The notes beneath the pieces were generated by a model that searched no databases, was not told the DNA's origin, and worked only from the letters and a program-made list of their open reading frames with translations. From the NCBI GenBank assembly GCA_025201375.1, contig JAIWZP010000090.1, positions 18,854 through 82,853 of the forward strand: a DNA stretch of 64,000 nt. Direction: 5' to 3'. This document shows positions 1,681-53,200 of the stretch, piece after piece (within the stretch, counting starts at the first letter, position 1; each line of letters starts with the position of its first letter). The stretch is from Gongronella butleri (taxonomy: Eukaryota; Mucoromycota; Mucoromycetes; Mucorales; Cunninghamellaceae). A program made the translations under genes and the position numbers.

Positions 1681-2919
1681 CACCACGTGTCAGGTTCCAG
1701 CCTGACAAGCTTGCCCACATTTATTTTTTTTCGTTTTTGCGCGGCCTCGCCTTGGGCCTCGCCGCTCGCACACGCCGCTCGCACTCGTCTCTCGCTCGTT
1801 GTCGCAGCACGCCCGCTTCCACCTTGTGCTTTGGCCCGCACGCGTCCTTTTTATACGCGCTCGTTTCAAAATACGCGTTGCAACGCATCGCGACGCGTCC
1901 AACGCGTGAATTGGCTCGGCTCCCGCCTCGCCCGATTTTCACGCGCATTCGCATTCATGTCTTGCTTGGTCACTAGCATTGTCCAGCAAGTCCAGTCATC
2001 GCCACCTCGTCTTTGGCCGCGCTGCTACACGCGCATCTCAAGCCAAGTGTGCCTCTCGACGCTTGCACGCGTACTCGATCCTCAGCCCGATCTCTCGCCA
2101 CGCTGTGCACGCACCAACTCGACACGGCCTCATTTGTTCGATCAATCATCATCATCAAGCTCCGCTCGCTTTCTTTTCTTTTTCCGTCGATTGCAGGACT
2201 GACGCGACACGTGGTCTCCACAGACTCCGACCACGCGCCATCCTCATCATGCACATCGGTACCACTTTTTGGCCTATCATAGGTACAACAGATGCAACGC
2301 CATGAGAGCGAAAACAACGTGTCATTTATCGTTCTTTTTTTTTTTTGTGAGCAGCGTTCCTCTGCATGGCGTGTGCACGATGACATGGCCCTTTTGCTGA
2401 TGAATGAGGCTTTTGCTTGGCTGTATCGTGGATTTGGGCAGTGGTACGATTGCCTTACGTAAGGTGGCCACAGCTGTCTTTTTTTTTGCCAGCGTGCCGC
2501 TTGAAGGTTTCTTGACAATGGGCAAGGAGGCGATGGGCAACAATAGAGTTACTTTAGGATTGATGTGAATAAAAAGTGTGCACAATTTTTTACCTACATA
2601 TGATACTGTACTGTACATACAGTATACGTAGAGTTGAAGAATCTGCCTCACCGTCCAATTCGGACAGCAGCAGATTGGTAACGTGCTCATCTACAGTAGA
2701 GCAAAACGGTTGGCATTGTCTTTGCTGTAAAATTCTTTTTCCATAAGAATGATTGCATTCTGATGCGGCCGCTGCTCAAAAGGTCAATCATGATTCATGA
2801 TACAGTATTCACGTTATTCAATCAGCAATCCAGACAGTTTCTTAGGATGTTGCCAGATGAACTCAATAAAATGCCATTATTTTCACAGATTCAACGCTGC
2901 TCCCCGGTTTTTTCTTGAA
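1681..2919. other. Gene-free stretch
   Basis: Several overlapping open frames exist on both strands between 1687 and 2518, but they are low-complexity or shadow each other, and no domain, splice pattern or recognisable protein emerges. The sequence is rich in ACGCGT/CGCG words. TACTGTA/TACAGTA motifs lie near 2609-2625. Confidence 0.4.
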
Positions 2920-3330
2920 TCGTGGTAAAACTGGCACGTGGCACCATTCATCAAAAGAGACACGCTCGGACGACATTTTCCAATCATTTGCACACGCTAC
3001 TGTATGAACGAACTCTGTATGCTTGAAAAGGTCGATCAAGTGCTTGACACATGTCTAAACTTAAATTTCTCAACAACGGCGTGAATGAATTACCGCACTT
3101 TTAACTCGTGGAAAGCAGCTATTGAATCTCTTTCAAATGACATGAGTTTCACCGCGATCCGATCAAAACTGACGGTAAAAATAGCCTTCTTCGACAAATT
3201 TTCTAATGTGCTTTTACTTGAGAACAGCCTAGGTTACCCCTGATTTTTATTCCAGATTCACTAACAAACGAGGGATCGAAGCATCTAATGAGGAGACTAC
3301 TTTTACGATGCTACAGTATCGTTCGTTTGA
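2920..3330. repeat. Dispersed repeat R5, copy 1 (degenerate)
   Basis: Same orientation and order as 46370-46800 (copy 2), with a shorter copy at 47240-47400. Shared words include gacacgctcgg/ggcacgctcgg, tgcttgaaaaggtcgatcaagtgcttg and gcatctaatg. Copy 2 keeps an open frame across the repeat; here it is broken by indels and stops. A TACTGTA replaces the equivalent of cg in copy 2 near 3000. Confidence 0.7.
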
Positions 3331-3420
3331 AAATTTTGCATCCGTCATTGGTCATTCCATCCAAGTGCCACCCAAGCAGCGTGTAAAATTGGTGGGTGGA
3401 GAAATGTGACAAGAAAACAA

Positions 3421-3517
3421 AAGACAAGAAAGACAATCGCAAACAGATACGGTTTATTGAAATGTAGTACAGTAAAACGATTCTCTATTTATACAAATAA
3501 AACGTGAAAAGACAATG
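3421..3517. repeat. Short dispersed repeat, copy 1
   Basis: Shares atacggtttatt...gattctctattt...aataaaac with 5646-5732. This copy has a TACAGTA inside (near 3470) that the other lacks. Confidence 0.5.
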
Positions 3518-4159
3518 GTGTCGTATCGTGAGATGCGGAGAAACAATGCTGTAAGAGAGAGCTGTCGAGACTCTCCGTGTCTGAGGCAAAACATATTATT
3601 TGCCGCTTTGCATCAACTGTGCGTGAAAAGACCTCGGATCGGTATCAAGCGCGTTTGTTTCAATCCATTGAATGCCATTGATGATATGTATACACATGAT
3701 GGGGCTGATCAGGGCATGGCCATTGAGCCGGTGAGACCAGCGCCTGCGGCGCGCGGCTCTCTTTTTTTTGCCATGATTGGCCCGAGCTCGTGGCTGGTCA
3801 TAGCCGAGCCATGACTCTGCATGTCTGGATCATTTGTATTAAGGGCATTGATGATGGATGCATCACGTATTGAGCGCGTACAATTCAATGTGAGAGCGTA
3901 AAGGATGATAAAGGTGCGCATTCCTTACAGTATTTTGGGCATCATGATTACAATGCGATGCGGATGACGGCCCGACAGCGGCCTGAGCGAGAGCGGGGAA
4001 TCAAACCCCAGATTTGGAAGGAGCGTCGGAGCGACGTGTGCGGCAATTACCTTTCTTTTCAACACTGGTAAAATACAAGGTACTGTACGCGCCATTGCGC
4101 GTCTAAACAACTTGATCGCTTATGCTCTGAGGACGGCAAATACAGTACAACACAGCGCA
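3518..4159. other. Gene-free stretch
   Basis: Only short open frames, none recognisable. A B-box-like sequence on the minus strand at about 3995-4009 has no matching A box or acceptor stem. Confidence 0.35.
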
Positions 4160-4650
4160 CAACAAAAAAATCTAATAAAATAAAAAATAAAAAATAAAAA
4201 ATAAAAAATACTATACTGTATTATGATAAAAAATAAAAGTTCCATGCAATCTATCACTTTAATTTGGAAGTTTCAAACCTTAAATTTTTGAAAAAAAACT
4301 CTTGCTCAAAGTAGGCACTTTTCTCGGTCGATCGCCGGTCATGCGTCACTCTTTGGGCTTTTTTCATTCTTAAAGGTAGGGCGACCTGTCATTTTGTCTG
4401 CCAATAGCAAATTGTCGAAGTTACCTGTTTGGGATGCATTGATCACTCGGAGTTCGAAAATTTCCAAATTTGGCATTTTCTGAGTTTGAAATGTGTGACC
4501 CTGAGTGACCCCTGAATTTTTCAAAGGTGGCCGTACGCTTTGGGGTTTTAAGCTTTTTTTGTTGCAAATCATGCGCTGAATTCGATACGGCTATTTTTGA
4601 GCAAGGTCGACCATACAGAAATGGCCAGATGAATGCAAAATAATACAAAT
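4160..4650. repeat. Dispersed repeat R2, copy 1
   Basis: Long match to 47450-47905 in the same orientation, including aatttggaagtttcaaacc, catgcgtcactctttgggc, ccaatagcaaattgtcg and gtttgggatgcattgatca. Non-coding in both copies. Confidence 0.8.
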
Positions 4651-4669
4651 ACCGGTAGGAGGTTTTTGG

Positions 4670-5415
4670 TATTTTTCGAGTTCAAATAAATCGGGCGGGG
4701 CCATCTTGAGCACTGGACCACAACAGCTTATGCCGTGGTGCATTTTTCACTGGCGGGGGGCAACGGGGGGCAAGTAGCCTAGATAGGATTTTCTGTTGAT
4801 AAATCGAGAATTGGGCAATCGAATTGGCATTTTGAGTGCACTTGGCTCTGCATTTGCGATGCTTTGACAGACTTTCTAGGGGTAATTGATGATTCTAAAT
4901 CGCATGGTGAAGTCTGAAATGCATGTCAGATTGCTGGATTTGGAGCACTTGAGCGATTTGCGCTGGTTTCGCCCTGTCTTTGAAGTTTGCTCTAATACAA
5001 GTGCTTCAAAAATCGCTCAATTCGTAATTCTGTTCATGTAACCAGATGTAAAATTTGATTTAGAATCGAATAAAGTCCTCACACGGTGTCCGTTAACTTA
5101 ATAAAATTTCGAGATAATCGCACTTCACGCGATTTTACGCGATTTTGGCCTTTGGCGGCGGTAAAAGTGCGATTATTAGGTGTTTTTATTAAACGAGCAA
5201 GGCTCGAAAGTAACACCATTCGATTCCAAATCAAATTTTACATCCAGGGGCATCGCGTTAGTTCATCTCAGTGCATTCCTGGGCGCTCAGCAAGAGATTA
5301 AAGTCAAAAATGCAGCTGCCCAATTCTCGATTTATGAACAGAAAATCCTAGCTAGGCGGGGCAAGTAGGCTGTAAAAAAATCTGGAGGCACAGCAGGCCG
5401 TCAAAGTCTGAAGAC
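4670..5415. repeat. Repeat R3 copy interrupted by a MITE
   Basis: The flanks (4670-4777 and 5357-5415) together reconstruct one R3 unit: ttgagcactgg..., then ggcaagtag, then ggctgtaaaaaaatctggaggc. Uninterrupted copies at 6862-7040 and 7265-7420 show the empty site. Confidence 0.65.
4778..5356. mobile_element. MITE-like element, copy 1 (about 579 bp)
   Basis: Terminal inverted repeats of about 40 bp: left starts cctagataggattttctgtt, right ends with the complement of cctagctaggattttctgtt. Each TIR continues into a sequence reading cgagaattgggca. No open frame of note. It sits in an R3 repeat, and the R3 words gggcaagtag occur on both sides, suggesting a target duplication of about 10 bp. That length would fit the Mutator superfamily, though these TIRs differ from those of the MULE at 57-60 kb. 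Confidence 0.75.
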
Positions 5416-5645
5416 GCGCATTGCTTGCGAGCTTGCCCTTCTAAAGTAATAATCGAAGTGCGCAAACGATGAATTGCATCTGTAACATCCAGGCTACCTA
5501 CTACAGTACTACAACAATAAATCGCGATGCAGCAGGAGGTGGTGGCGTACAATCGATGTCGTCCACCTCAATGACATCTGTGGATGGGCTTGATCTCTTT
5601 TGCCCGCAGCGCTGAGAAATGGGTAGAGGAAAAAGTCAAGAAAAA

Positions 5646-5732
5646 GGGAAAACAAGAAAATACTTTGAGAATCGAATACGGTTTATTAGGGAAATGAAAA
5701 GATTCTCTATTTAAAAGAAATGAATAAAACTA
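5646..5732. repeat. Short dispersed repeat, copy 2
   Basis: Matches 3421-3517 (atacggtttatt...gattctctattt). Lacks the TACAGTA seen there. Confidence 0.5.
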
Positions 5733-6174
5733 GGGTTTCAAAATAGCAAGGTGTCGATTGATGTCTGGATGCATGGCTGTCAAGCATGCATATCCTTTCC
5801 GAGGCATGTATAAAGTGAGCCGCGCTCAATTAGCAATTGAGCTTGACCCCGGATATTGTTACAAGCAGGGATGCGCTGTCTATGAATGATATGGCGGCCG
5901 CGCGCCTCGTTACGTAGCAGCATCGCCAGCAGCGCCGGCAGCACCCGACGCCGGCCAGTATTATTGTGCGTGCTCCTTGCAGGTGTGGCGATACTACTCC
6001 GAAATACTGTACTACATTATCATATTGCGCAGGAAGAGCGAGGTACTGTATAATGCGCGCAGCAGAATAATGAACACGCGAGAGAGTGACGGACAGACCT
6101 TTGAGTGCGTGATTTCGTTGCCTTGCTTGAGCACCACAAACGACGTACAATTGCTTTGTGGCCCGTCGACGGGG
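5733..6174. other. Gene-free stretch
   Basis: The open frame on the minus strand at 5830-6258 runs into the MITE and is not recognisable. TACTGTA occurs near 6005 and 6045. Confidence 0.35.
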
Positions 6175-6777
6175 CCTAGCTAGGATTTTCTGTTCATACT
6201 GTAAAACATCGAGAATTGGGCAATCGCATTGGCACTTTGAGTGCACTTGGCTTTGCATTTGCGATGCTCTGACAGACGTTCTTCTAGGGGTAATTGATGA
6301 TTCTAAATCGCATGGTGAAGTCTGAAATGCATGTCAGATTGCTGAATTTTGAGCACTTAAGCGATTTGCCCCGATTTCGCCCTGTCTTTGAAGTTTGCTC
6401 TACTGTAATACAAATGCTTCAAAAATCGCTCAATTCGTAATTCTGTTTACGCAGCCAGATGTAAAATTTAATTTAGAATCGAATAAAGTTCTCACACTAT
6501 GTCCGTTAACTTAATAAAATTTCGAGATAATCGCACTTTACGCGATTTTACGCGATTTGGCCTTTGGCGGCGGTACAGTAAAAGTGCGATTATCAGGTGT
6601 TTTTACTAAACGAGCAAGGCTCGAAAGTAACACCATTCGATTCCAAATCAAATTTTACATCCAGGGGCATCGCGTTAATAATTCATCTCAGTGCATTCCT
6701 GGGCGCTCAGCAAGAGATTAAAGTCAAAATGCAGCTGCCCACCAATTCTCGATTTATGAACAGAAAATCATAGGTAG
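6175..6777. mobile_element. MITE-like element, copy 2 (about 603 bp)
   Basis: Same orientation and near-identical interior to copy 1. Differences are mostly 5-bp insertions at TA: TACTGTA at 6197 and 6401, and TACAGTA at 6574, where copy 1 has a single TA. The right flank is again R3 sequence; the left flank is different. TIRs start cctagctaggattttctgtt. Confidence 0.75.
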
Positions 6778-6861
6778 GCACTGTTCTACTGTAGGCTGTA
6801 CGTAAAAAAAATTCTGGAGGCACAGCAGGCCGGTATCATAAAGTCTGAAAACACGCATTTT
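6778..6861. repeat. Repeat R3, partial copy
   Basis: Reads ggctgtacgtaaaaaaaatt...ctggaggcacagcaggccggtatcataaagtctg. Compared with other copies it carries TACGTA (6799) and TATCATA (6834) where they have TA or nothing. Confidence 0.65.
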
Positions 6862-7040
6862 TACATTTTCGCGTCCAAAAAAAATCGGGCGGGTCTGTAT
6901 TGACTATTGAGCACTGAGCAATAGTTTACGCCACGATGCAAGTTTGAAGTTTTATTGGCGGGCAAGTAGGCTGTAAAAAATTTCTGGAGGCGCAGCAGGC
7001 CGGCAAAGTCTGAAAAACACGCTTTTGGTTTTTAAAAGGT
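6862..7040. repeat. Repeat R3, uninterrupted copy
   Basis: Contains aaaaaaatcgggcggg, ttgagcactgagc, ggcgggcaagtaggctgtaa, ctggaggcgcagcaggccgg and aaacacgcttttggtttt in order. This is the empty-site reference for the MITE at 4778 and the footprint-free reference for the ctgtaaaaaa segment. Confidence 0.7.
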
Positions 7041-7179
7041 AAATGTGTATCATACGTTTTTCGTGGCTCCGAGAAAAAATCATACCAAACGCGTTGCGTA
7101 TTTTTGCCTTCAACGCGTGCGATGCGCCTCGCACTCCACACTCACACCTCACGCGTCACGTCGCATTTTTTTTTACACA

Positions 7180-7255
7180 TTGGCCCACACCCACACCCAG
7201 GGACCCAGCCCGCCACACCCTGCCCACACCCGCACACCCACACCCGGCACCATAC
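7180..7255. repeat. C-rich CCACACC tract
   Basis: Degenerate tandem CCCACAC/CCCGCAC units. A comparable C/A-rich tract (cgccccaccacgcc...) follows the R3 copy at about 51297-51350, so it may be part of the family. Confidence 0.55.
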
Positions 7256-7264
7256 AGTATGTGA

Positions 7265-7420
7265 TTGAACACTGGGCTGTTCTAGTTTACACCGTGGCGG
7301 GTGGCGCGCGTTTCATTGGCGGGCAGCTGGACTGTATGATAAAAAAATTTCTGGAGGCACAGCAGGCCGGCAAAGTCTACAGTAAAAACACGCTCTTTGG
7401 TTTTTAAAAGGCAAATGTGT
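7265..7420. repeat. Repeat R3, copy
   Basis: ttgaacactgggc ... ggcgggcagctggactgtatgataaaaaa ... ctggaggcacagcaggccgg. TATGATA at about 7335 stands where the 6862-7040 copy has TA. Confidence 0.65.
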
Positions 7421-7599
7421 AAGTTTTTGTGCAGCGCAGCGCGATACTTCAGGCATTGAAATGATAGCACGCGTCGTTTTCTGCCCAGCGAGATTAAAAC
7501 ATGATGGACGGATCAAACACTAAATATTTTTTGTGCAAAAATCCAAAACGAATGAAAATTGTGTTTTTGTGAATTTTCTCAAGCACTTGCTGAGAAGTG

Positions 7600-7860
7600 A
7601 GAAGAAAAAATATGAGGGGTTTTGGAATTGCGAGCTCAAAAAAAAAAATCGGGCCGACCCACCATTCCACGCACAGGCGGTTGTTGATCGCGTGACACAT
7701 CTTTCATCGGTGGGTCAGGTAGGCTGTATTACTGTAAGTACAGTATTATCATATGATAAAAAAACCTGGAGACATACAGTACGTAGCAAACCGGTACTGT
7801 AGTATCAATAAAGTTTGAAAAGCACGCTTTTCAAAAGGCAAATTCTTGATCTGCGCCGGG
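7600..7860. repeat. Repeat R3, heavily inserted copy
   Basis: R3 words (aaaaaaatcgggccg, gtaggctgta, cctggag, gcaaaccgg, aaagtttgaaaagcacgctttt) are separated by stacked TACTGTA, TACAGTA, TATCATA and TATGATA motifs between 7725 and 7800. Confidence 0.55.
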
Positions 7861-8963
7861 TAGTAACTACTGTAGGACATTGTTGCATTCATCTGAAGCA
7901 GCAATTGAAGCATATGATGTGATAAAAAAATGCAAAAAGCGAAAACACTTGCTTGTTTTCCACATTTAATTTGATTTTTTTTTTTGTATACTGTAAAGCA
8001 CACATTTAAGTTTTATTAAACGGGTGCACCTTCTTGCAATCAGCAACAACCTATCGTATGCGCGCTAATGCTGACACACACGAGCGCCTCACAAAAAAAT
8101 ATAATATCATAAAAATTGCTTTTTTTTTTTCCAATGCACGATTTGGCCGCGGCCTTTCAGGCTACAAAAGGGGTCACAAAGCAAAAAGGCAAGACTTTTT
8201 CTTGCCGAATATCGTACCGTACGTCCTTTCGCAGTATTCTATCTATCCCGGATGTTTTGGCGCGCGCGCGCGCCATGTTTTCTTAAGCATCATATCATAA
8301 AAATACCATAAAGCGGATTTTAGAAAGGCACACAGAGTGGTGCGGTTGCATGGTGCCGCTGTTGTTGATGTTGAAAAGACGCACACACGGCCGCCGCTCT
8401 CTCCAACCAATGATTCCCTTGTGTTGAGATGGACCTTGGATCGCTGCAAAAGGAAATCAAAGAACAGCTCCAAGCATTGGTCCCAGAGTTGAAGCTGCAT
8501 TTTGGCACGTTCAATGGAAGGACAACGTGGCCTTCCTAAATAAGGCGCGACTCCGTCTGTTCATGTTTTTGTCGCACCAGCAAGATGCTTGTTTTAATCA
8601 ATAGATCTACAGCATGCTGGCCGGCTTGATGATGACGACAGCGGCGAAAGTAATGTGAGAATGGACGTGCTGACGTTTCATGACGAAGCCAGCCACGAAA
8701 TGCGGAACAATGCAATCACTTTTTGTCCAAAAATCCATCGTCCCACTGCTGGATTTTGTTCCTTTGACGCTGTTTGGCTGTTCCTGGAATTCCATTTGCA
8801 TAAAATTGTTGCCAAAACCCCGGTAATGCCAAGAAGACATGATGAATGAGAGCCTCGAAAAACGTCATGCTCTCCCCACAAATGGCCAATGATTTCGATC
8901 GGATTTAGTAGCGGGTATATTTGGGGATCGCTTGTATTTTTGAGTTGTTTGATCCCATTGTCC
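7861..8963. other. Gene-free stretch upstream of the DUF336 gene
   Basis: Short unrecognised frames only. TACCGTA occurs near 8215, and a (CG)n palindrome near 8262. Confidence 0.35.
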
Positions 8964-24312: not shown

Positions 24313-27300
24313 CTAATCCATCAACGAGCCCGAGCCCGAGCCATTCCAATAGGGCGACTGTTGCTGTGGTGGTGGTGGTGGTGGTTGTTGATGGCCAAAA
24401 GGCTGTTGTTGCTGCGGCGGTGCCATTGACTGCATGAATTGGTGATTTTGCGGCTGTTGATAAGGCTGCATTGGTTGTGGATGCATTGGCTGCTGCTGAG
24501 GCATTGTTTGGTAGGACGTCGGCGTGTACATGGGTTGCTGCTGCGGCTGCGGCGGCTGTTGCTGTGGATATGGCTGATACGGCTGTTGTTGGTGCTGTTG
24601 ATACGGCTGTTGCTGATACGTCTGGGGTTGCTGCTGATACGCGTGTTGCTGGTGCTGGAATGGCGGTTGTTGCTGCTGTTGTTGAAGAGGCTGTTTGGGC
24701 GGGATGGGCGGATTTTGCCATTGCTGAGGCGTATTGGGCGATGGAGCCACGGGCGGCTGGAATGGCTGCTGCTGCGGCTGTTGGTACATGGGCTGATGAT
24801 GATACATTGGCTGCTGCTGTTGCTGCTGAATGGGTGGAGCTGGCAAGGGAGGCGCGTGTGCAGTGGTTGGCGTTGCCATTGGCTGCTGTAAAGTTAATTG
24901 CTGCGCACGCTCGGTCAATTGCGACACGTCCGGTGCCGATGGCGATCCACTGGTGGTATACATGCTGAGCCGCTCTTTGAGCAGCGCCTGGTCGCGCTGC
25001 AAATTGCTGCTGTCAAGCGTCTTGCATAATTGATCGCGTTCCTTGGCGCGCTCCTGCGAAAATGATCGCACATTCGTCAAAAGTGACTCGACCGCGCCCG
25101 CCAATTGCTGATAGTATTGGATCCCCTTTCTGAAAAAATGAATTGGAACTTTAGAAGCATGCACTTCTTTTTTTTCATTTTTCTCGTCTTTTTCCACTTT
25201 TTTCCCACTTTTTTCCCACCTCCATTCGTCCTCTTTTCTTTCCAATGACTTACAAAAGCCCGTCGTGTGTTTCCATGTAGGTATCCTTTGCGTGCTTGAA
25301 TTGGTCGACAAGCTTGCGTTTTTGATTTTCGGCCTTTTCCCACGTGAGTTGAAGTTTTTGGGCATCATCGCCATCCATGAGCACTTTAAAGGCCGCGGTG
25401 AGGTCCTGGATGAGGCGCTGCTGTTGCTGGATGGAGCCTGCAATGCGTTGCTGGTGCGGACGGTACTTTTCGAGCTCATTGGCAAACAATTGTTGCTCAG
25501 ATCCGGATTTTTTGTTGAGGATGAGCAGCTGTGAGATGTCCTCCTGACGTGTGCGCTCCTTGAGATCGTCCAGTGTTTCTGCGCGGTCCTTTTCTAGTCG
25601 GTACAGCTTGTCCAAGAGCGATTCGATGCCTTTTACTTTGTCCTTGGTCGATTCGCCCGATGCAGCACCGGCAGCGTCGCTTCCGGCGGCAGGCACGTCG
25701 TCCGACAAGTCCAGCAGACTGTCGACGCCCACAGAGTTCGTCTTGGCCTTGCTGGCATCGTCGTCGGCAAGCGCAGTCGTCAATCGCTCAGCAAAAACAC
25801 GCTCCAATGACCCACGCGCACCGCCACCACCTTGACGCAGCTGGTCCACCTCCTTTTTGATCGTGTCGAATTGGCGGTACAAGTGGCTGTCCGATTGCGT
25901 GCCATTGTCGAGCGCTTGGCGGTGATTGCGCGCATCTTGACGGAATTGCTGTGTCAGCGTCCCCGAAGGTGCCTGTGTCCACGCATCACCATAGACAACC
26001 TGCAATAAAAAGAAAAGAAAAAAATGTTGGCGCCCATTTCGTTGGTTCCTGTTTTCTCTTTTTTTTCCGTTTTTTTCTTTTTTTTTTTTCCAACTTGTGA
26101 CCCGTTTTCGCCCTATTTTTTTTTTTAAAAAAAAAAGGGAGCTTACGCGCTTGCTTTCACACTCCTTCATCTCCTGATCGAGCTGGATGCCCACATCATC
26201 GAGAGCGTGACGTGCCTTGATCTTGATTTGCTCCAATTGGTCCATGAGGACGCGCACGGATTGGGTTTTCTCCTTTTCGGCGACGGCATCGGCCCATTGA
26301 AAGACGGTGGTGGGCGGGTCCATGTCGATGGCATCGGAAGTGGCGGCGGGGCGCTTGAATTTGTCGAGAGCTTGCGGCAATTTCATGTATTCCATGGTCG
26401 ATCGTAGCTCTGCCTTTGCATCGTCGCATTTCTCGTCTTCTGCGCGCACCAATTTTGCCTGTTCCTCGGAATACATGGAAGCGCGTTCGTGCACGCTGAG
26501 TGGGATGAGCCGCGTAAAGATATCTTGGCCAATGACCTTGGTCATCTCTTCGGGTGTGTATAAATCGACAATTTGAACGGATTTCACGGCATTGAGGCGG
26601 TCAATGGGCGTGAGCACCGATGCCTGTGGCACCTGGTCGTGGTAGATCATGTCATTGTCGCGTGTGGCCGCTGCCAGCTTTTCCGTGCACGTGGCGGCAA
26701 GCGCCTTGCACAATTCCTGCATGACGGGCCCCGTGTCGGGAGGCAACGTGCCGTGTGCGTGATTCGACGCCGTCGCTTGCTGGATCAGGCTCGTACAAAG
26801 GCGCCCGGCGCCCTCTTTGCCCGCCTGCTCCGCGACCGTCCATCGTGCCACCTGTTCACCATATTGGCCCGCCGCCTCACACGCCAACGCCTTGAATTGC
26901 TGGGCAATCGCTTGATAATAGCGATGCTTCACTTGGAAAAGCGCAATCCACGATTTCTCGAGAGTGGCCGTCACTTCTGCGCTTTCGTCCACAAGATTCG
27001 CATACGCCCACACCGCGTGACTCGCCAATTTCGCAATCAGGCCTTCTTTCTTCTTCTCGCGGATCGAATTCTCCAAAAAGCATTCGTGCGCCTGCGCCAG
27101 CATCAGCTCGCCAAGCAATTTCACAGTCTCACGGCTCAAATCCGCAGATGGCGCGTGCAAAAAGTTGTCGTTGATGTAATCAAACACACCCGCAGCAGCC
27201 TGCAAAAAGTGAAACGCGCGCTTGCGTCCATCGGCCTCGGCGCGATTCTGCGCAGATGCAATCGCCGACAACGTCGCCGCAATGTTGAACAAAACAGACG

Positions 27301-43305: not shown

Positions 43306-46300
43306 TTGGGAAGGGCTCAAACTTTAATTTTTCCACTTTTCCATCGTTCCCAGAGACGCCTCCCACAGCTGCAATTCGCTGTTGAGTTTTTTAAGTTCCA
43401 AAACCTTAAAGGGCCAGGCCCAATTGCCTGCTCCCCCTCACCCAGATGATTTGCCCCGTTTATGAATCCTCAAAAATCATCACATCCACTCACCCTCGGG
43501 AAGGAGGTGAGGAAAAACCTTTTGATTCTCAAATCAGGACGTAGTCTGCATGGCCAAGCACCAATAGGCGCCGAGCGTCAAGATGAAAGTGAGCAAAACG
43601 GTTCCCTCCGCCTCCTTGCGTCCCCTCACCCCCCGCAAGCAATTGCTTTCCCCGGATGCCACTGGACAAGGTTACACCGAAAATATTTTTTTTCTCATCA
43701 GAATGGGAAGAAACGGAATCGCCGCTGGAGCGGGTGTGACTAAGCCAGTAAGGGTCGAGATGGGACCCCAATTGCAAAGAAAAAAAAAGTCATTCGAGGT
43801 TCCTTTAAAAGAGAAAAAAGAAAATAAAAACAATCATCCCATCATGGCAACCTCGGAATGAAAGACTGGGCTAGCTGCTACTTTGTTCAATTCATCCGTA
43901 GGTCGATTTTTTTGCACTTTGTGTGTTCACCCATGGGGGAAAGAAACAAGGGCGCGGGCAAGAATGATCATTTATGGCAAAAAGCTGCAGCCAAACAAGC
44001 GTGTATGTAGTACAAATAGGGCAAAGTTTGTTGCGCCTGGCATTGGGCAAAAAATTCTCCAAAAGAGCCACCCAATGAATAGGCCCAGCCATTCCGAGGT
44101 GTACAAGCTTCCATTTCAGGCTATCCCGCAACATCCAGGAAAGGGTCCATTCCCACTCTTACCTAAAGCGGAATTGGCGGGTAAATGAGGTAGCCGCTTT
44201 GGGCCGCTTGGCACCAAAGGTGAAATGCGGGTGGGGGCGGGGACGCAGGATGACGACAAGGGACCAACAAAAAAAAAAAAAAAAAAAGGTGCTCCAAAGC
44301 TTAAGCATGGATGCACAAGGTGCATTTGCTTCCCATCATGACCACAGCAAATGGCGGGTTACGGCGGGAGCAAGGCTCAGTGCAGACCTAGCTATGTTGG
44401 GGGACGAGAGAACCGAGAAAAAGTCCCTTTTTTTTGTGCACCAAATCTTATTTACTCATGCTGGTGACATTGATCAGATGGGAAACTGGCAGACGCTCGG
44501 GACGTGGCCGTTGGCAAACTGTACACCGTCTTGGTCACTGAGACGCATATTTGGAGCAAATGGCAAGCGCCCAATGATGGTGATTTTTGTGCAACAAGGC
44601 GCGCCTTTTTTTTTTGCGTTTTAACGCGAAAGATCATGAAAACAAAGCAGCAAACGACAAGGCGCACGAGTATGCGTGGTTTCTAGCTTGCTGGGGCTGC
44701 TATTCAAAAGTGTTGCGGCGGCCGAATAGTGCAAGCGGTTGCAAAGACTAAAAAGGAGGAAACGCATGGATGACCAGAGGACACGTCGATGATCACGCTG
44801 CGCTGATCCGCCTCCAAAGAATGAAACACATAAATGGAACATCTCGTTGCTCCTCGGAAACCGCACCCCATGACGTGATCCCCCCTTGGGAGTCGTTTTG
44901 AAAAAAAAAAAAAAAAAAGCATGACTCATGTGCACTGCCCAGCATCCAAGCTTCCCGGTTCTTGGCAGGATTGAGTAAAACGACACTAGTTTGCAACGTC
45001 GTAGGACCCTGGTAGATGGTAATCAAGGTTAGAAAAAATGGAACTGCGCACCGCAGATTTTACATTATGTTTGTCCCCCTGGGGGAATTGGCTCGCGGGT
45101 TGCGGGGCAAACTGGGAACATCAAGAACCTGTCATCAGACAGCAAATTGCCCCAGTCAAAACGACGCATCGGTGCTGATACAAGATGCGGGGAATGAAGC
45201 ATCTTTTTTTTTTTTTTTTGGTTTCAGCTTCTCGACCCTTTTTCATCACGCAATTCCCAGATTGGTGTCATCCCAATTACCTAAATAAGGCTGGTCCAGA
45301 ACAGAGCCCCACATCTTCCGCGATTCGGCGGGTGGGGAAGAGGGTTCATTCAACGATGACACCCAAAAGAACAAAAAAAAAAAAAAAAAAGGTGGGGGAA
45401 AGGCGGGACATTCCAATCCTGGTCCGTGGGCCCCTCATGCAAGCCTGATTGTTAAAGCACAAAAGGCACGCTCTTTTTCGACCTTTGTTTTCCCGTCGCT
45501 GGCTGTGGTCCAAGCTGTAATGGTGGGAGAAGTCCGCCAAAATTGGTGTTCCTGAAGCCAGACAAGCACATGCACACACAACCTTATTGGGAGCTTTTGC
45601 TTCCCATGGAGTTGTACGTCAGGCACGCATGTATCTCATCGTGGGCTGTGGTGGGAACAAAAAGTGCGAACGTCAAACGTGTGCGCGTCAATGCGCCTTC
45701 TTTGGCGGAAAAAAAGACAATGACTAGTCCCTGGCCAGCATATTCATAGACAAATAGGATACTTTTTGACGTGCACACATCCCTGATACAGGTTTACATC
45801 GCTATAAAAGTACACAACGAGGGCGCAGAGCACGGACACCCAACAACAGTGCACCAAAATAGTGAATTTGGTGAAAAACTTGAGCTTCTCACCTCCTCTT
45901 TTTTTTGGTTTCTGCTACATCAGTATATCATAATGCACATGAGCCTTGCTCATTCATGCGCGGCTCACATCGTAAAACCATCACACCGGCTGTACCTTAC
46001 CATTTCATATTTTAGCAAAAAAAAAAAAATCGGATCTCCATAAGCATGCCAAACTTTCTTACAAGAGAACCTTCATGGACGAGCTATGATACGAAAAATG
46101 CCTGATCCATCTGTTTGTCAACGAGCAATGAGGGATTTTGGTTTTCACAGATCACACCGATATTTTGCAATCCCCTTTGAAAACTCGTCATTCTTGAAAA
46201 TCGACATGGCGCAGCAGCACCATCATCGAGTGCCCTCAGGCCCCAGCCTCATGAAACTTTGCCATTTGAGCATTTATTGGCAGCGCAACAACTTGAATCA

Positions 46301-46362
46301 AATGATACAGTATCGTACCTGTATTTTCACAAAAAAAATCAGCGCAGTGTCCAATTTTTTTC
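43306..46362. other. Three-kilobase gene-free region upstream of the transporter
   Basis: No protein recognised in any frame. Several A-runs of about 17-19 nt (44270, 44902, 45373) and a T-run (45205) are spread through it. It may hold distal control elements of the transporter, or an untranslated RNA; nothing in the sequence decides. Confidence 0.35.
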
Positions 46363-46695
46363 ATGGATTACAATGAAACTGTCGCCATTCAAGTAAAAGA
46401 GGCACGCTCGGGTGTCATTTTCCAAATTGTTTGTACGCCGATGAACGACCTTTGCATGCTTGGAAAACTCGACCAAGTGCTTGATTTGTGTTCAAACTTA
46501 ATTTTCTCGACAACGGAAAAGGCGACAAAAGGCGCTTTCAATATGTCGAAAGAAGTTGTTGCTGCTTTGTCTACTAACGAGCTCATTTTCACCACGATCA
46601 GATCAAAAACTGACGGAGAAATACAGTACGTAAAACTGCTTTATTCAACAAATTCTCTAATGACCATTTGCTCGAGAACGGTCTATATACTGTAG
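46363..46695 (+). CDS. Open frame inside repeat R5
   Basis: ATG to TAG, 110 aa (MDYNETVAIQVKEARSGVIF..., MLGKLDQVLDLCSNLIFSTT, FNMSKEVVAALSTNELIF). It reads like a real protein domain and spans the R5 repeat, whose copy at 2920-3330 is broken in this frame. TACAGTA (46623) and TATACTGTAG (46685-46694) near its end look like later insertions, and the stop itself lies in one. It could be a remnant of a coding element or a fragment of a captured gene. No family recognised. Confidence 0.35.
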   Translation: MDYNETVAIQVKEARSGVIFQIVCTPMNDLCMLGKLDQVLDLCSNLIFSTTEKATKGAFNMSKEVVAALSTNELIFTTIRSKTDGEIQYVKLLYSTNSLMTICSRTVYIL

Positions 46696-46800
46696 ATGAA
46701 CCCCAATTTTTATGATACAGTATGATATCCAGATTTACAGTACCAACAAACAGTGGGTCAAAGCATCTAATGGGGTGGCTTGCAGCGCGCTACGTAGAGG
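46370..46800. repeat. Dispersed repeat R5, copy 2
   Basis: Matches 2920-3330 and, at its right end, 47240-47400. Against those copies it has TACAGTA/TACTGTA/TATGATA insertions around 46689-46745. Confidence 0.7.
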
Positions 46801-46849
46801 CGCGCCAAGTGCAAATACAGTAAAAAAATGATCATCTCAGTGCTTCAAA

Positions 46850-47110
46850 ATCAAAATCGAAAAAATATCATAGAATCATACTGTAGGCCTCCAGAATTCC
46901 TCCAAATTTGTATAATAGGTAGAGCAGAGAGAATCCACGAAACATGCCAAAAAAAGTGGGGTTGACCTGCTGGTTGGCAAGCAGCAATTCATGATTATTT
47001 TAGAATAAACTTTGCTGACGAATGGCACGCAGAAGCGCGTCCTTGCTTGGAGTCGCGCCACCAAGCAACGCGTCCACTGGCAAAAGAGGCTCCAGGTGCA
47101 TGGATTTACC
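46850..47110. repeat. Dispersed repeat R6, copy 4
   Basis: Matches 17600-17860: cctccagaattcctccaaa, gacctgctggttggcaagcagcaa and acgcgtccactggcaaaagaggctccaggtgcatg. Confidence 0.6.
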
Positions 47111-47239
47111 AGCGGTGCTTTTGACATATCAAAGAAGGCATCTATATGATATGATATTGAATCTCTACAGTACGTATTATCAAATGATGAGACCAGTTCC
47201 TTCATCGATGGATGATGATGATGATGGCTAAGCTCGCAG

Positions 47240-47400
47240 ATTTTCTCTGCTATTCTGCTTTTTCATCAAAATCTTAGATCGCGATTTGCTCGACAACGGT
47301 CTAGTTGAGCCCCATTTTTTGTTGCAGTTTTACTAACAAACAAGGGGGCAAATCATCTAATGGAACGACTTGCAGAGCGCCAGCTTGGGTTTGAACTTTT
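47240..47400. repeat. Dispersed repeat R5, copy 3 (right end only)
   Basis: tttgctcgacaacggtctag, gagccccattttt, actaacaaacaaggg, catctaatgg and gcttgcagagcgc-type words shared with copies 1 and 2. Lacks the TA insertions of copy 2. Confidence 0.6.
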
Positions 47401-47449
47401 TGCATCGGTCATTTCACCAGCCTGCAGCCCACTCAGTGCACAAAAATGT

Positions 47450-47905
47450 GCAAAATAAAAAATTAAAAAAAATAAAAAAATAAAAATTCAATGAAATCCA
47501 CGCACTTAATTTGGAAGACTCAAACCTTAAATTTTTGCAAAAAAAAACTTGCCCAACGCAGACAATTTTCTCAGTCGATCGCTGTTCATGCGTCACTCTT
47601 TGGGCATTTTTTTACGTTGAGGCGACTTGCCATTTTGTCAGCCAATAGCAAATTGTCGGAGTTACCCGTTTGGGATGCATTGATCAGTCGGAGTTTGAAA
47701 TTCCCCAAATTTGGCATTATCTGAGGTTGAAATGTGTGACCCCTGAGTGACCCCTGAATTTTTCAAAAGTGGTCGTAGAACTTTGGGGTTTTAAGCTTTT
47801 TTGTTGCAAATTTTGCGCTGAATGCGATGCAAGTATTTTTGAGCGGGGTCATGGGTCAACCTTGCAGATGATCAGATAAATGAAAAATATGATAATAGTA
47901 CAAAT
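47450..47905. repeat. Dispersed repeat R2, copy 2
   Basis: Same orientation as 4160-4650, with most of its length alignable by eye. Confidence 0.8.
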
Positions 47906-48062
47906 TAGGGATGTTACAGAAGACTTACAGTACGGTACAGTATGATAAATTGAGAATCTCGCTCGAAAATCTCGAGGTTTCGAGGAGACGAGATCGAGAC
48001 GATCGAGACGACTTGAATCTCGCTCGTCTCGCTCGAATCTCGAACAAAATATTAGGTTACGT
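47906..48062. repeat. CTCG-rich array, left
   Basis: Begins ttagggatgttacag, then many CTCGAATCTCG/GACGAGATCGAGACG units. Related in reverse orientation to 50748-50897, whose complement begins tagggtggttacag. Such TAGGG(T/A)GG ends with CTCG repeats resemble fungal hAT-type termini, from memory. Confidence 0.5.
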
Positions 48063-48179
48063 ATCATAATAGGCGTAGTGTTTCATCATGCATTTTAGAT
48101 TACCGTATCATATCATAAGTGGTGTGGTGCAATGAGAAAAAGAAGCTTTGTCTTGGCACTGGAGTCCGGTCGTGAAAGG

Positions 48180-48460
48180 TTGTTGTATTTGCCCGCTTTA
48201 CAGACCTTGATTTAATAAGAAAAGCCTAACAGACGCTTGGTCTGTCAATGAAAGAAAGCGCAAGCGCGTCTTACCGGTAAACGCGTTTAACGCGTAAATG
48301 ATGCGTGTGCAAGCAGTGATCAAAGAATGAAAATGCTGACTTGTCGCCGCAATTCATCTTTCTCATGACGCTCCTCTATGCGGACATTACCTAATCGGGT
48401 AATGGTCCCGCTTTGCTCGTCACAAAAGCCCGCTGTCGGCTGGTCATCACGCTTTACTGC
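48180..48460. repeat. Dispersed repeat R1, copy 2
   Basis: Matches 1419-1680 in the same orientation. Has TACCGGTA at about 48273 where copy 1 has TA. Confidence 0.75.
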
Positions 48461-48866
48461 TTTTTCTTGCGTTTTGTTGGAAGAATAATGCGCATCTTCC
48501 GCAATCTCGGTCTCTGTACGCACATTCCCATCGTTTAAGATGCTAAAGTAAACACCCCGTGGGACTCATGGCATGCATTGGTCAATCTATGACCAATGTC
48601 ATGGCGAAAAGGAAATAAAAAAAGAAAGGTTTGCGACAAAATGACGCATTCGCGCCAATGATCAAGTCCAGGTCCACATGCTTGTGGCTCCATCGCAAAC
48701 CACGCTCCTTTTCGCGTTTCCTCACCATGCGAATCATCGCATGTAAATGAATCTTAGCCATTGACGTCCGCAGGACAGGGCAATAACTCTCTTTGAGATC
48801 CACGCGGCTTTGTTGTACAGGAATCTCACGCCCCTGTTTCCTTATTCAGACGCCGCGACAGCTTTA
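48461..48866. other. Gene-free stretch left of the Tc1 element
   Basis: No gene recognised in either strand. Confidence 0.35.
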
Positions 48867-50495
48867 CCGTGGCTCTCAAAAGTGATCCAAATTTTGGGAA
48901 TCTCACACAAATTTTGTTTGTTCTCATTCAATAATGATCGGATAAAAACGCTATTTATACTATTAGATAGCCCTATTTGAATTCTATAATGTGTTAAAAT
49001 TTCAATTTGATATGTTCAATATTGATTGAGCTACAGCGCGTAATAAAATCGGAGTTATTTGGATCACTTTTGACGCGTCGCTACTTTTTTTTTATTTTTT
49101 TATTTAATATTTCGTCCAACGACCGTTCGCCTTAATAACTGCTTTGCACCTGTCAGGCATGGACTCAATGTACTTACGAACCATTTCTTTAGGAATGTCG
49201 TTGTACCAGACGTGCACTACACGCTCCCAAAGTTCATTCATGCCTTTGGGTACAGTCTCGTATCGAAAAAGCTTTTGCTTGAGCAAGGCCCACATGTTTT
49301 CAATTGGGTTAAGATCAGGAGACTGCGCGGGCCACTCCATGACTGTAAACGGCTGTTCCGCCAACCAGTCTTGCACTAAATGTGACTTATGCTTGGGGTC
49401 ATTATCCTGTTGAAATATGACGCGCGCAGGATCGAACTCCTTTTCACGAATAGACGCCCACAAATCTTCCTTTAGGATGTCCAAGTAGAGGTGCTTATCC
49501 ATCGTAGTGTCTATCTTTGTGATATACCCAACACCCTCCCAGGTGATGCAGCTCCAAACCATTACATTACCACCACCATGCTTCACGGTTTGTTGAACAT
49601 GACGCGGTTGAATGTTTTCTTGGGGCCGCTTCCAGGCATAGTTCTTTCCATCCGAGCCATACCGGTTGATTTTCACTTCGTCTGACCAAATAACACGTTT
49701 CCAGTCTTCGATGGTCCAGTGCTGATGCATGCGAGCCCAGTTTAAGCGTCGAATTCGGTTGACTTCACTGATGAGAGGTTTTTTTGGCTTCACAAAGGCA
49801 ACTAGCCCTGCTTCCTGCAGTGCTCTACGAACAGTATGAGTACTGACAACAATACCGTGGTCCTCCTGTAGCTTGTTCTTGACTTCCACCGCATTTTCCA
49901 GACCAAACTTGGTGATGGCACGCACGCAATACTTCTTCATGCGATCGTTGAGAAGAGTTGGACGTCCCATTGTCCCCACTTTTGCAACCAACGGTTTGGA
50001 AACGCGTAGTCTTTGGACTGCACCATAGCTAGCACCAGTCTTCCGCATAATTTGGCGGATAGAGAGCCCGTCCTGAACGTGCTTGAGAATGCTGTTTCTC
50101 TGATCAGTAGTTACTTTGCCCATTGCTGGAATGCCGGTAATGAGCTAGTGATTCGACGGTAATGAAGAGTAGAAAGTGACTCCAACAAAGAAGACAAGGA
50201 AAGTGTGCCTAGAAAGAAAAAAAAAAAAAGAAAAAACAACCTGCTCCAAAACCCCGATCAGGCAGGAGCAATTTCAGGCACGTGGGCGGCAAAAGTGATC
50301 CAATTGACTCCAATTTTATTACGCGCTGTAGCTCGATCAATATCGAACATATCAAATTGAAATTTTAACACATTATAGAATTCAAATAGGGCTATCTAAT
50401 AGTGTAAATACTGTTTTTATCCGATCATTATTGAATGAGAACATATAACATTTGTGTGAGATTTCCAAAATTTGGATCACTTTTGAGAGCCACGG
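48867..50495 (-). mobile_element. Complete Tc1-type transposon (1629 bp)
   Basis: Flanked by TA at 48865-48866 and 50496-50497. Long terminal inverted repeats of 206 bp (48867-49072 and 50290-50495) start CCGTGGCTCTCAAAAGTGATCC. Each repeat carries AAAAGTGATCCAA at its outer end and the same word inverted at its inner end (48878, 49059, 50291, 50472), probably transposase sites. One intact transposase gene lies inside. Ends, target site and gene are all in order, so it may be active or recently so. Confidence 0.93.
49104..50123 (-). CDS. Tc1/mariner transposase, DD34E
   Basis: Intact single-exon frame, 339 aa, with an ATG at 50123. Residues 1-110 hold two helix-turn-helix-like DNA-binding regions (SIRQIMRKTGASYGAVQRL; VSTHTVRRALQEAG) with GRP (53-55), an AT-hook-like motif, between them. 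The DDE domain follows: D148 in WSDE, D240 in FQQDNDPKH, E275 in SPDLNPIENMW. The last two are separated by 34 residues, the Tc1 signature. GGGNVMVWSC is also typical. Cuts and pastes the surrounding element at TA sites. No premature stop or frameshift seen. Confidence 0.97.
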   Translation of the reverse strand: MGKVTTDQRNSILKHVQDGLSIRQIMRKTGASYGAVQRLRVSKPLVAKVGTMGRPTLLNDRMKKYCVRAITKFGLENAVEVKNKLQEDHGIVVSTHTVRRALQEAGLVAFVKPKKPLISEVNRIRRLNWARMHQHWTIEDWKRVIWSDEVKINRYGSDGKNYAWKRPQENIQPRHVQQTVKHGGGNVMVWSCITWEGVGYITKIDTTMDKHLYLDILKEDLWASIREKEFDPARVIFQQDNDPKHKSHLVQDWLAEQPFTVMEWPAQSPDLNPIENMWALLKQKLFRYETVPKGMNELWERVVHVWYNDIPKEMVRKYIESMPDRCKAVIKANGRWTKY

Positions 50496-50747
50496 TATTT
50501 TACGCGTCTCTGCATCTACAGTAGTCTATCTGTCTAGGCACTTTCAATTTTTGTATAAATACGTATCGAGATCATTTTTATTTCAATAAAAGACTTACTT
50601 CATTCTCGTTCCTTGCAACGTCCCTATCTTTTCCTTTATTTTTGCTCTAAGCTACTACTCTCCACATTCTTCAAAGGTTCGACCCTTGTCTTTGTGTCGA
50701 CTTTTTTGGTGGATTTTTTCACTCCACCAGGCAAAGTTTTGAAGAAA
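50496..50747. other. Flank right of the Tc1 element
   Basis: TA target copy at 50496. A TACAGTA lies near 50518. No gene. Confidence 0.4.
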
Positions 50748-50897
50748 AATGCTCGAGTTTTGTCATGTGACATTCTCGAGTCTCGCTTGATCTCGACCAC
50801 GAGAACCTAATTATTTTGTCAAGACGACGAGACATAGAGTACAGTACAAGACAAGGTGAATCTCGTCTCGCTCGCTCGAATTACTGTAACCACCCTA
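50748..50897. repeat. CTCG-rich array, right (inverted)
   Basis: Complement begins tagggtggttacagtaattcgagcgagcgagacgag, paralleling the left array at 47906. The pair encloses R1 and the Tc1 element. Confidence 0.5.
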
Positions 50898-50929
50898 TCT
50901 ACAGTACTATGATAAGAACAAATACAGTA

Positions 50930-51080
50930 TCATACGTACGTAGGCTGTAAAAAATTTCTGGAGGCACAGCAGGGTAAAAGTACCTACAAAAACACGCTTT
51001 GATTGTCGGTTTCCGAAGGCAAATTTAATCTTTTCTTCTTTTGTGCAGACGAACAGTAGCGTGATACACTGATGATACTG
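50930..51080. repeat. Repeat R3, copy
   Basis: cgtaggctgtaaaaaatttctggaggcacagcagg, aaacacgctttg, gaaggcaaatt and ttttgtgcag match 6957-7040 and 7330-7440. Confidence 0.65.
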
Positions 51081-53200
51081 CATCACAGGCATCATGATTC
51101 ATGAATTTTGTACTAAAGTGATAGCGTGCGTCATTCAGGTTCTTTCCACTGAGAGTATTATAAAAAATAGATGGATCACAAGTATTTGTGCGCGAAATAA
51201 AGTCATCCAAACGAATGAAAAAATATGTTTTTTTTTTAACATTTTCGGATACTTGCGGCCTGATACAGTATTACAAACAGAAACAAGCAAGACACGGGGC
51301 GCACACGCCCCACCACGCCCCACCACGCCACACGCCTCACGCCTCACGTTTGAAACAGCAACACTCTCAATAAGCAAATTTTAGATCATAGAGGAATCAG
51401 CGCCATCGTGAAACAAACGGTGCATTTTTTTTCCAGACCTTGAAGTTGACGATGCGCTTTCTCACATGTACAGTAATGCCGTGCATTTCTGAGCAGATGA
51501 CTAGTGATACAGTAAAAAAAAAACGTGTATATGATGTGTACAGCATGCTATGATATCATACAATAAAAACGCGTTCAAAACTTCGTAAAATGCAGTTTTG
51601 ACTCTGTTGAGCACGACATGCCAGCCTGGAATATTTCCAAGTTGTTGTGTGGCCACCAACACACATGAAAAAAAAGAGTGCTTGTTGGCTAGCCATGTAC
51701 CAAAAATTAGGGTAAAATCGCTTTTTTTTTTTTTTTTTTGTGGGGCATGAACCTCGTTCCCCAGCTCTCGGACAATTCACGATATCATGCGCACAAGAGA
51801 CCCGCCAATACTCGGTCTTCGCACCCTAAATTGGTCAAAGCACCGTGTCGCGTCATTCATTTTTGGTTGACCGACCGACGCTTGCGTGTTTCTGGCCGCG
51901 GATCTGGACCATTACGTTTACAAGTCCGAGAGGCAGGGATGGCGATGCCTTTTGCCATTGCACAGCGTGGTGGCGCGCTGCTTGCAGCAAATTGGATGAC
52001 AGGTTTGTCCTGGCCCGTGTGCCTGCAGCCCTTTTTTTTTTTTTCTCGAGAGCACCTGATCTATGCGCGCATGCACGCAAATCAGGCGGCAACATGCATT
52101 GCACACCAAGCGGTGGGCCACAGATTGGTACGACCATCGCGGACAAGGAAAAAAAAATGAAAACCGCCTGGCCCGACGCATGTCAAATCGGTGAACATGA
52201 CTCAATCTGGCAAATTGTGTAACCAGTCTATAAAGGGACGAAACTAAACAGCAAAGAGCCAAGCAGGTCCGCAAGAAAATGAGCCATTGCGATGTACCGG
52301 CATCAGGCACCCTCGCAGAAATAGGCAAAAAGGCAAGAAAACATACTGGAATTGCATGAAAATCAGATTTTACAATACATCACAGAGCAAAATGGGAGCG
52401 GATGGCCTTGCCCATTGTCCTGCGTCGATGCTGCAAAAGCGGGGGCCTTTTAGATATGTCGGCACGTGGAATAGGGATGACACGCTTCGCGTTGCCATGT
52501 ATGGGGTCGGCGTGCAGGCACAGGGTAACACAGAGTGGCCCAATCTTAACTTGGGGAGTTTCAACGAGCATAAGAATGTGCATTGACGTCAGGACCAGCG
52601 GATGGATTCCACCTGAATCAGGCGTAGGCCATGACAAAAGTTGAAGGAACAAAAAAAGAAAGGAAAAATGGCAACAACGGGCGAAAAAAGAGTAAAGCGA
52701 CGCAAAGCCAAGTAATGGGTGCGCACACACGGACGCGTCGCGCATGGAGATATTAAAAGCACCGCTCACGTGGCCATTGCCCTGCTGAAACAGTAATGGG
52801 AAATCATCAAAGCGGGACTGAAAGAGAAAGAAGAATGCGCGATGCAACAATGTGCATGGTGGTGCACTTATCTTTGTAGATTTTTTTTGGGGGGGGGGCA
52901 GGGAGTTGGATCTCCGTGCGGCCGTGCCTTTTTCCTATGAAACCCATTGCTTTGGGCCCTTTTTTGTGCTTCTTTCTTTCCTTTTTTTTTTTTTTTTTTT
53001 TTTAATTCTTCCTCCTTTGCCTCCCTGTGCGCGGCACAACCAACGAATAGACACCCCAACGCGTTCTTTCGTTTCTTTGCCTCCTCTCTCTTCTCCTCCA
53101 CCCCCTTATCCAGCCACTTCCTCGCCGGTTCAACTCAAAGCCTGCGTTTGACAGCTGCTTCCCGCCTTCTTTCGCACTTTTTTTAAATACTTGATCGACC
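51081..53200. other. Gene-free region upstream of G-alpha 2
   Basis: C/A-rich tract at 51297-51350 and TACAGTA at about 51265, 51468 and 51509. Open frames at 51738-52850 overlap on both strands and are unrecognised. CT-rich leader 52970-53190 before the G-alpha 2 ATG. Confidence 0.4.

Follow-up and report, generated by a model that had tools for sequence, protein, structure and literature searches.

We analyzed a 64-kb stretch of the genome of Gongronella butleri, a Mucorales fungus whose 33.0 Mb assembly comprises 110 contigs. This stretch, referred to as the window (contig C101, positions 18854-82853, forward strand), contains islands of repeats dense in two short motifs, of which the main one probably represents excision scars of Tc1-like DNA transposons.

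Repeat islands and heptamer motifs in the window

The two motifs are TACWGTA (TACAGTA or TACTGTA) and TATSATA (TATCATA or TATGATA), and both are concentrated in two scar-rich islands, island 1 at 2599..8299 and island 2 at 46085..51560. Island 1 includes two copies of a miniature inverted-repeat transposable element (MITE), both on the + strand: copy 1 (4778..5360), which has similar inverted ends of ~40 bp and served as the reference copy in alignments, and copy 2 (6174..6779), which carries three CWG scars as judged from its alignment to copy 1. Island 2 includes a resident Tc1-like element on the minus strand (48867..50495; family G2), with ends CCGTGGCTC, inverted repeats of ~210 bp and lone-TA flanks, which we used as a control family. 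Its transposase (49104..50123, minus strand, 339 aa) matches PF13358 and PF01498 and has DD34E spacing by hand count. A BRO1/ALIX frame, read unspliced, lies at 25250-27292 and has 93% identity to a protein of G. butleri.

To determine whether the motifs exceed chance expectation, the window was compared with 300 dinucleotide shuffles. TACWGTA occurs 52 times (shuffle mean 1.54, maximum 6) and TATSATA, which spans 1366-55106, occurs 36 times (shuffle mean 2.75, maximum 8), while the third-ranked TANNNTA class, AAA, has n = 12. The initial annotation, made from the sequence of the window, had held that such motifs are common at 1-8 and 46-52 kb and rare in the gene block at 9-32 kb, and the counts agree with it. 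There are 27 TACWGTA (starts 2604 to 7989) and 9 TATSATA per 306 TA at 2-8 kb, and 18 and 15 per 304 TA at 46-52 kb, compared to none and 4 per 636 TA at 8-32 kb; the 32-38 kb bin has 5 of each per 235 TA. Motifs can also adjoin: the double CWG unit TACTGTACTGTA at 2604..2615 is the only double among 51 CWG arrays in the window, and a TATCATA and a TATGATA share a TA at 7747..7758. Additionally, TACGTA is enriched in the window (16 versus 3.1 expected; for example at 5911, 6799 and 7780), possibly as a scar that has lost its mismatched central base.

Genome-wide, TATSATA was found 9,529 times against 1,031 for a reversed-pattern control, and TACWGTA 16,213 times against 6,355, an excess of only 2.6-fold, although this control is a loose yardstick because it has AT in place of the TA of the motif. 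The resulting TACWGTA density of about 1 per 2 kb is partly due to chance or repeat copying, and genome counts do not equal independent events because repeats duplicate some scars along with themselves. For comparison, over 300,000 sites are given for the mouse genome in one study (PMC4378557).

Five-base insertions between repeat copies and elements with matching ends

The initial annotation had read five-base insertions at TA between repeat copies as the footprints of Tc1/mariner excision. In MITE copy 2, TACTGTA at 6197..6203 and 6401..6407 and TACAGTA at 6574..6580 are present exactly as described, each a 5-bp insertion relative to copy 1, which has a lone TA in their place (at 4993 for the second and near 5162 for the third). 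Further MITE copies have 5-bp insertions at copy-1 positions 4890 and 4993 (locus L007) and 4800, 4950 and 5299 (L008), where 4890 and 4950 read TG rather than TA, and two others (L002 and L003) have none. For the repeat R3, the motifs listed earlier (TATGATA at 7335..7341, TATCATA at 6834..6840 and TACGTA at 6799) are all there, and the first has a lone TA in a sister copy near 6974. At 6834 the corresponding sequence of the sister copies is GCAAAG or GTCAAAG, so a lone ancestral TA is not established and this motif is less certain as a scar; similarly, the TACAGTA at 7378 lies opposite TG in its sister copy.

An all-against-all comparison of repeats yielded 1,091 indels after removal of low-complexity and badly aligned gaps, in a sample that is skewed to the islands around elements and may recount an insertion inherited by several diverged copies. 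Sixty-eight five-base indels were kept, 36 of which are TA-NNN-TA, and these 36 are confined to 3 of 32 triplet classes: CAG (27), TCA (5) and CCG (4). TA-bounded indels at other lengths numbered 10/184 (3 bp), 2/60 (4 bp), 4/35 (6 bp), 0/19 (7 bp) and 5/16 (8 bp). Indels at TA were one of the two tests set by the initial annotation; together with the resident CAG- and CCG-ended elements described below, this spectrum supports the footprint reading of the TA insertions, with the source of TATSATA unseen. In the set of sequences examined, single CWG units are CAG in 196 cases and CTG in 168, counts that fit a mismatched central base repaired in either direction. Another indel type also stands out in a tally of MITE copies and other repeats, some of them coding (window 4778-6779 and loci L001-L008): tandem duplications of a triplet of any sequence make up 67/125 three-base indels, against 22/68 and 9/31 for tandem duplications of 2 and 4 bp. 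They resemble what staggered breaks, or an element that duplicates 3 bp of its target, would leave behind.

The heptamers could in principle owe nothing to transposition and instead be a microsatellite, a protein-binding motif or an effect of composition, as they are found arrayed in tandem as well, and within the AT-richer islands. This explanation is barely credible given that exact 5-bp insertions at TA separate repeat copies and fall into three triplet classes, a spectrum that contradicts it, and that elements with matching ends exist. Additionally, among the 1,613 adjoining CWG pairs in the genome only 733, under half, consist of equal units; array neighbors are therefore not biased toward equality, which argues against slippage, and we rejected slippage on that count.

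We asked which elements in the genome could have left such scars. A DDE_3 profile search of the genome gave 74 matches. Among them, family G1 is 1,333-1,334 bp long, has ends CAGTGCCCGGAC and encodes a 341-aa transposase in an open frame, with PF13358 above cut-off at its loci. Counted by hand in the translation, 34 residues separate the D of MEDGA from the E of NPIENLW, a DD34E arrangement. It has nine full copies; comparison within two sets of them gave identities of 99.8-100%, some copies being identical over 1,334 bp. The terminal inverted repeats measure 37-42 bp with the flanking unit included (L059 and L060), and TA borders both sides in 18/19 parsed elements across groups, the right side of L061 reading AC. 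G1 is a member of Tc1/mariner by its DD34E triad, inverted repeats, TA duplication and excision footprint, the last of which, a terminal triplet between two TAs, we infer from the indel spectrum.

Besides the full copies, at least 33 foldback copies (1,004-1,011 bp; L037 388-1401 and L076-L107) have the same Tc1-type ends as G1 and arms of ~423 bp within a total of ~1.0 kb; several groups of them show no difference at all, which suggests recent mobility. Other CAG-ended groups are represented by L048, L050, L031 and L071, while L039-L042 form a group ending in CCG. The few TACCGTA motifs are probably likewise Tc1-like excision scars, and G2 could be the origin of the CCG class. A pattern search of the genome for G1 ends gave 83 + 81 = 164 hits (1 + 0 for the control), far below the TACWGTA total, and no end of a known CAG-type group lies in the 64-kb window despite its 52 CWG motifs. 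Several side features accompany these loci. DDE_3 loci L009-L023 have no TA-bounded inverted repeats at the settings used; within this range, L016-L021 (contigs C15, C5, C6, C54, C86 and C104) are near-identical genes, five of six near contig ends and the C54 copy toward the opposite contig end, a possibly subtelomeric location, and L011-L014 have tandem repeats of ~20 bp units beside the gene. In the window itself, an open reading frame at 57734-58825 contains a MULE transposase domain.

Element families with matching ends, the second test set by the initial annotation, exist for CAG and CCG, as near-identical Tc1-like elements with open frames, but none was found for TATSATA in the searchable sequence. 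Mos1/mariner scars are TATCATA or TATGATA and would match this second motif. No TCA/TGA-ended family was found, however, by an inverted-repeat scan or by PF01359 or PF03184 searches of the searchable sequence. In the scan, which covered 359 kb, all the matches listed were arms lying within longer palindromes; PF01359, the mariner gene profile, had no match in the genome, but the control genomes gave none either, so such a gene may still be present. PF03184 identified a DDE_1 pogo-type locus (L073 236-3134) with inverted ends CAGTAGGTTCTGGATATATCGG (CAGTAGGTTC) at TA and one stop in frame. As no TCA-ended family was found, we regard TATSATA as an orphan scar for now.

Scars at the flanks of resident elements

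Resident CAG-type elements lie within such footprints, a feature that the initial annotation had not noticed. Flanks were scored at 100 listed ends of the 164 G1 ends, all without mismatch. CWG-TA precedes 93/100 of them and TACWG-TA 84/100, while CWG precedes only 214/4,376 TA ends in the window and CWG-TA is found at 1/20 ends of the CCG-ended control G2 (10 copies). The remaining triplets are CGG (3), TTG (2), GTG (1) and CCG (1). At least two units adjoin 24/100 ends, and four rows, representing three junctions, abut another element; in these three pairs only TA lies between the elements. Among the foldbacks, 30/33 are bordered by CWG left and right and 3/33 on one side only. Farther out than one unit, the flanking sequence is mixed. 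In other groups, the right ends of L061 and L071 show no unit.

Since the unit accompanies most copies on both sides and would itself give TACWGTA on excision, we considered whether the element in fact extends outward to include CWGTA. Six foldbacks that are identical over 1,006 bp (L079, L093, L096, L097, L098 and L099) nevertheless differ in their flanking units, and the CCG-ended copies L039-L042 have CWG units at 8/8 ends (7/8 with TA) although their own scar would be CCG. The unit is therefore not borne by the element. Abutting elements also lack it and the empty sites described next keep two units, so that an outer-end origin is very unlikely, and we rejected it on the strength of the identical copies with different units and of the empty sites.

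One locus allows an empty site to be compared with a filled one. L112, on contig C38, reads GAAATACTGTA|E|TACTGTACATGC, where E is the element. Its left flank of 266 bp recurs without difference on contigs C35 and C54, where the element is absent and the site is GAAATACTGTACTGTACATGC, a double scar; TACTGTACTGTA stands there in place of the TACTGTA|E|TACTGTA of L112. The simplest history suggested by these sequences would be an ancestral double scar hit in its middle TA. At the equivalent site, L011 (98% alike) reads TACCTG-TACAG-TACAG-TACTG-TA, as if two extra rounds of insertion and excision had occurred at the middle TA of the double. Other paralogs, at ~60-80% identity, were too diverged to reveal a pre-insertion state. 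Taken together, identical copies with different units and an empty double scar indicate that scars appear to be the target.

Scars also form longer arrays. Among the arrays listed for contig C1, those of 2, 3, 4, 5 and 6 units number 24, 7, 7, 3 and 1, so that 18/42 have at least three units, against a share of 0.113 under a variable-rate birth model fitted to the estimated singles and the doubles (P = 2e-7). This excess of long arrays suggests that growth becomes faster after a TA has come to lie between two CWG units, which is the type of site occupied by residents.

Possible insertion into, or retention within, scars and known systems

We propose that the TACWGTA motifs are Tc1-like excision scars and that CAG-type elements either target their own scars for insertion or persist preferentially within them, so that the scars grow; we assign this reading a probability of about 0.7. 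The footprint mechanism is that of Tc1 and Sleeping Beauty biology. Insertion would duplicate the TA, and on excision the host would join the ends to leave a TA, three terminal bases and a second TA. The overhangs would mismatch at the central base of C-W-G, which repair could settle either way, and TATSATA would be compatible with the same mechanism acting on TCA/TGA ends from a source so far unseen. CAG-type residents now mostly occupy the TA between two adjoining scars, with a CWG on each side and an ordinary TA duplication, and each insertion and excision there would add a 5-bp unit and thus further sites of the same kind. The scars, young elements whose ends match them, the sequences flanking residents, the single empty/filled comparison and the excess of long arrays are observed, and from them we infer an insertion preference for scars, which retention of chance landings could mimic.

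Several observations weigh against this proposal. A scripted sort of the 33 foldback flanks gave 16 single-unit sites, 8 arrays, 3 abutting cases and 6 copies at which, on one side, either the outer TA of the unit or its CWG is missing. At 14/16 single-unit sites the two units are direct repeats (P = 6e-4 versus the 733/1,613 equal pairs genome-wide), which independent scars would not predict. Furthermore, none of the 33 copies lacks the unit on both sides, yet most scars are single. For contig C1, the number of single units (668) is itself an estimate from the genome mean, and neighboring arrays, such as five at 911-912 kb, may be non-independent. Array growth suggests a modest preference and the residents an enormous one, so that retention or a change of habit over time would be needed. 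Finally, the empty/filled evidence comes from one locus at which C35 and C54 may represent a single event, and their double could be of post-excision origin.

The direct repeats would be explained if elements inserted into a single TACWGTA and duplicated all seven bases. The difference between single-unit sites and sites within arrays (Fisher P = 0.02) favors this, and direct repeats are also found at L058, L060, L041 and L042. We consider a seven-base duplication unlikely. The units are inverted at L086, L096, L039 and L065, and of the 8 foldback copies located in arrays 5 have inverted and 3 direct units. Moreover, the three abutting pairs have TA alone between them, the empty sites on C35 and C54 have two units rather than one, and the 2-base stagger of Tc1/mariner is, to our knowledge, regarded as invariant. 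A circular intermediate that copies one unit to both sides was weighed by reasoning alone and set aside.

That none of the 33 foldback copies lies away from scars while most scars are single points either to sharpened targeting or to poor excision between scars combined with retention. Under the second, elements would insert at any TA, exit quickly from lone TAs to leave single scars, and pile up between two scars, where excision is poor. Retention of this kind accounts for the abundance of single scars alongside residents in doubles, and for array growth that is faster by only a modest factor. Nevertheless we hold it less likely than not, as an inserting element would seldom meet a double (the genome has 1,613 adjoining pairs, and the window one such array) and copies flanked by one scar should also be common, whereas they account for 3/33 foldbacks. 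The first alternative, for which we see slightly less than an even chance, is that one lineage of Tc1-like elements, once able to use any TA, has come to target only the double scars of its own excisions. Every transposition would then create new landing sites, an autocatalytic process that would confine the transposon to gene-poor islands.

The usual view of excision scars is that they are infrequent, inert by-products; here the main motif is abundant and appears to be where elements sit. If confirmed, scar-directed residence would constitute a self-made safe harbor, a new answer to how cut-and-paste transposons persist without damaging genes, and would offer a readable record of excision versus insertion in a small fungal genome. 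Among known systems, impala leaves short TA-flanked scars, and we know of no scar-dense genome or scar targeting for it. This element, from Fusarium oxysporum, is an active fungal member of the Tc1/mariner superfamily (PMC2874221). Insertion of Tc1/mariner elements is described in the same review as occurring at any TA, from which G1 residents depart strongly in the 93 listed ends that follow CWG-TA, although what is observed is residence rather than insertion. Stowaway MITEs of grasses are mariner-type and leave scars on excision, but these are plant elements, with no self-targeting mentioned in the available part of the report (PMC1925063). No open-access paper on transposable elements of G. 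butleri was found, and the titles and abstract openings listed from the open-access literature yielded no report of a scar-dense genome or of scar-targeted insertion. Ciliate internal eliminated sequences are also TA-bounded, but they are removed in a somatic nucleus and the present genome is fungal. Sleeping Beauty is a fish Tc1-like element whose typical TA-flanked footprint, TAC(A/T)GTA, is common to both systems (PMC3432063; PMC4378557), although the review gives it as TAG(T/A)CTA (PMC2874221). The Sleeping Beauty scars were obtained from engineered cells and tumors, with no mention of residents inside scars in the available parts of those papers (PMC3432063; PMC4378557). The footprint itself is known, and the scar-targeted or scar-retained residence of the elements appears to be new.

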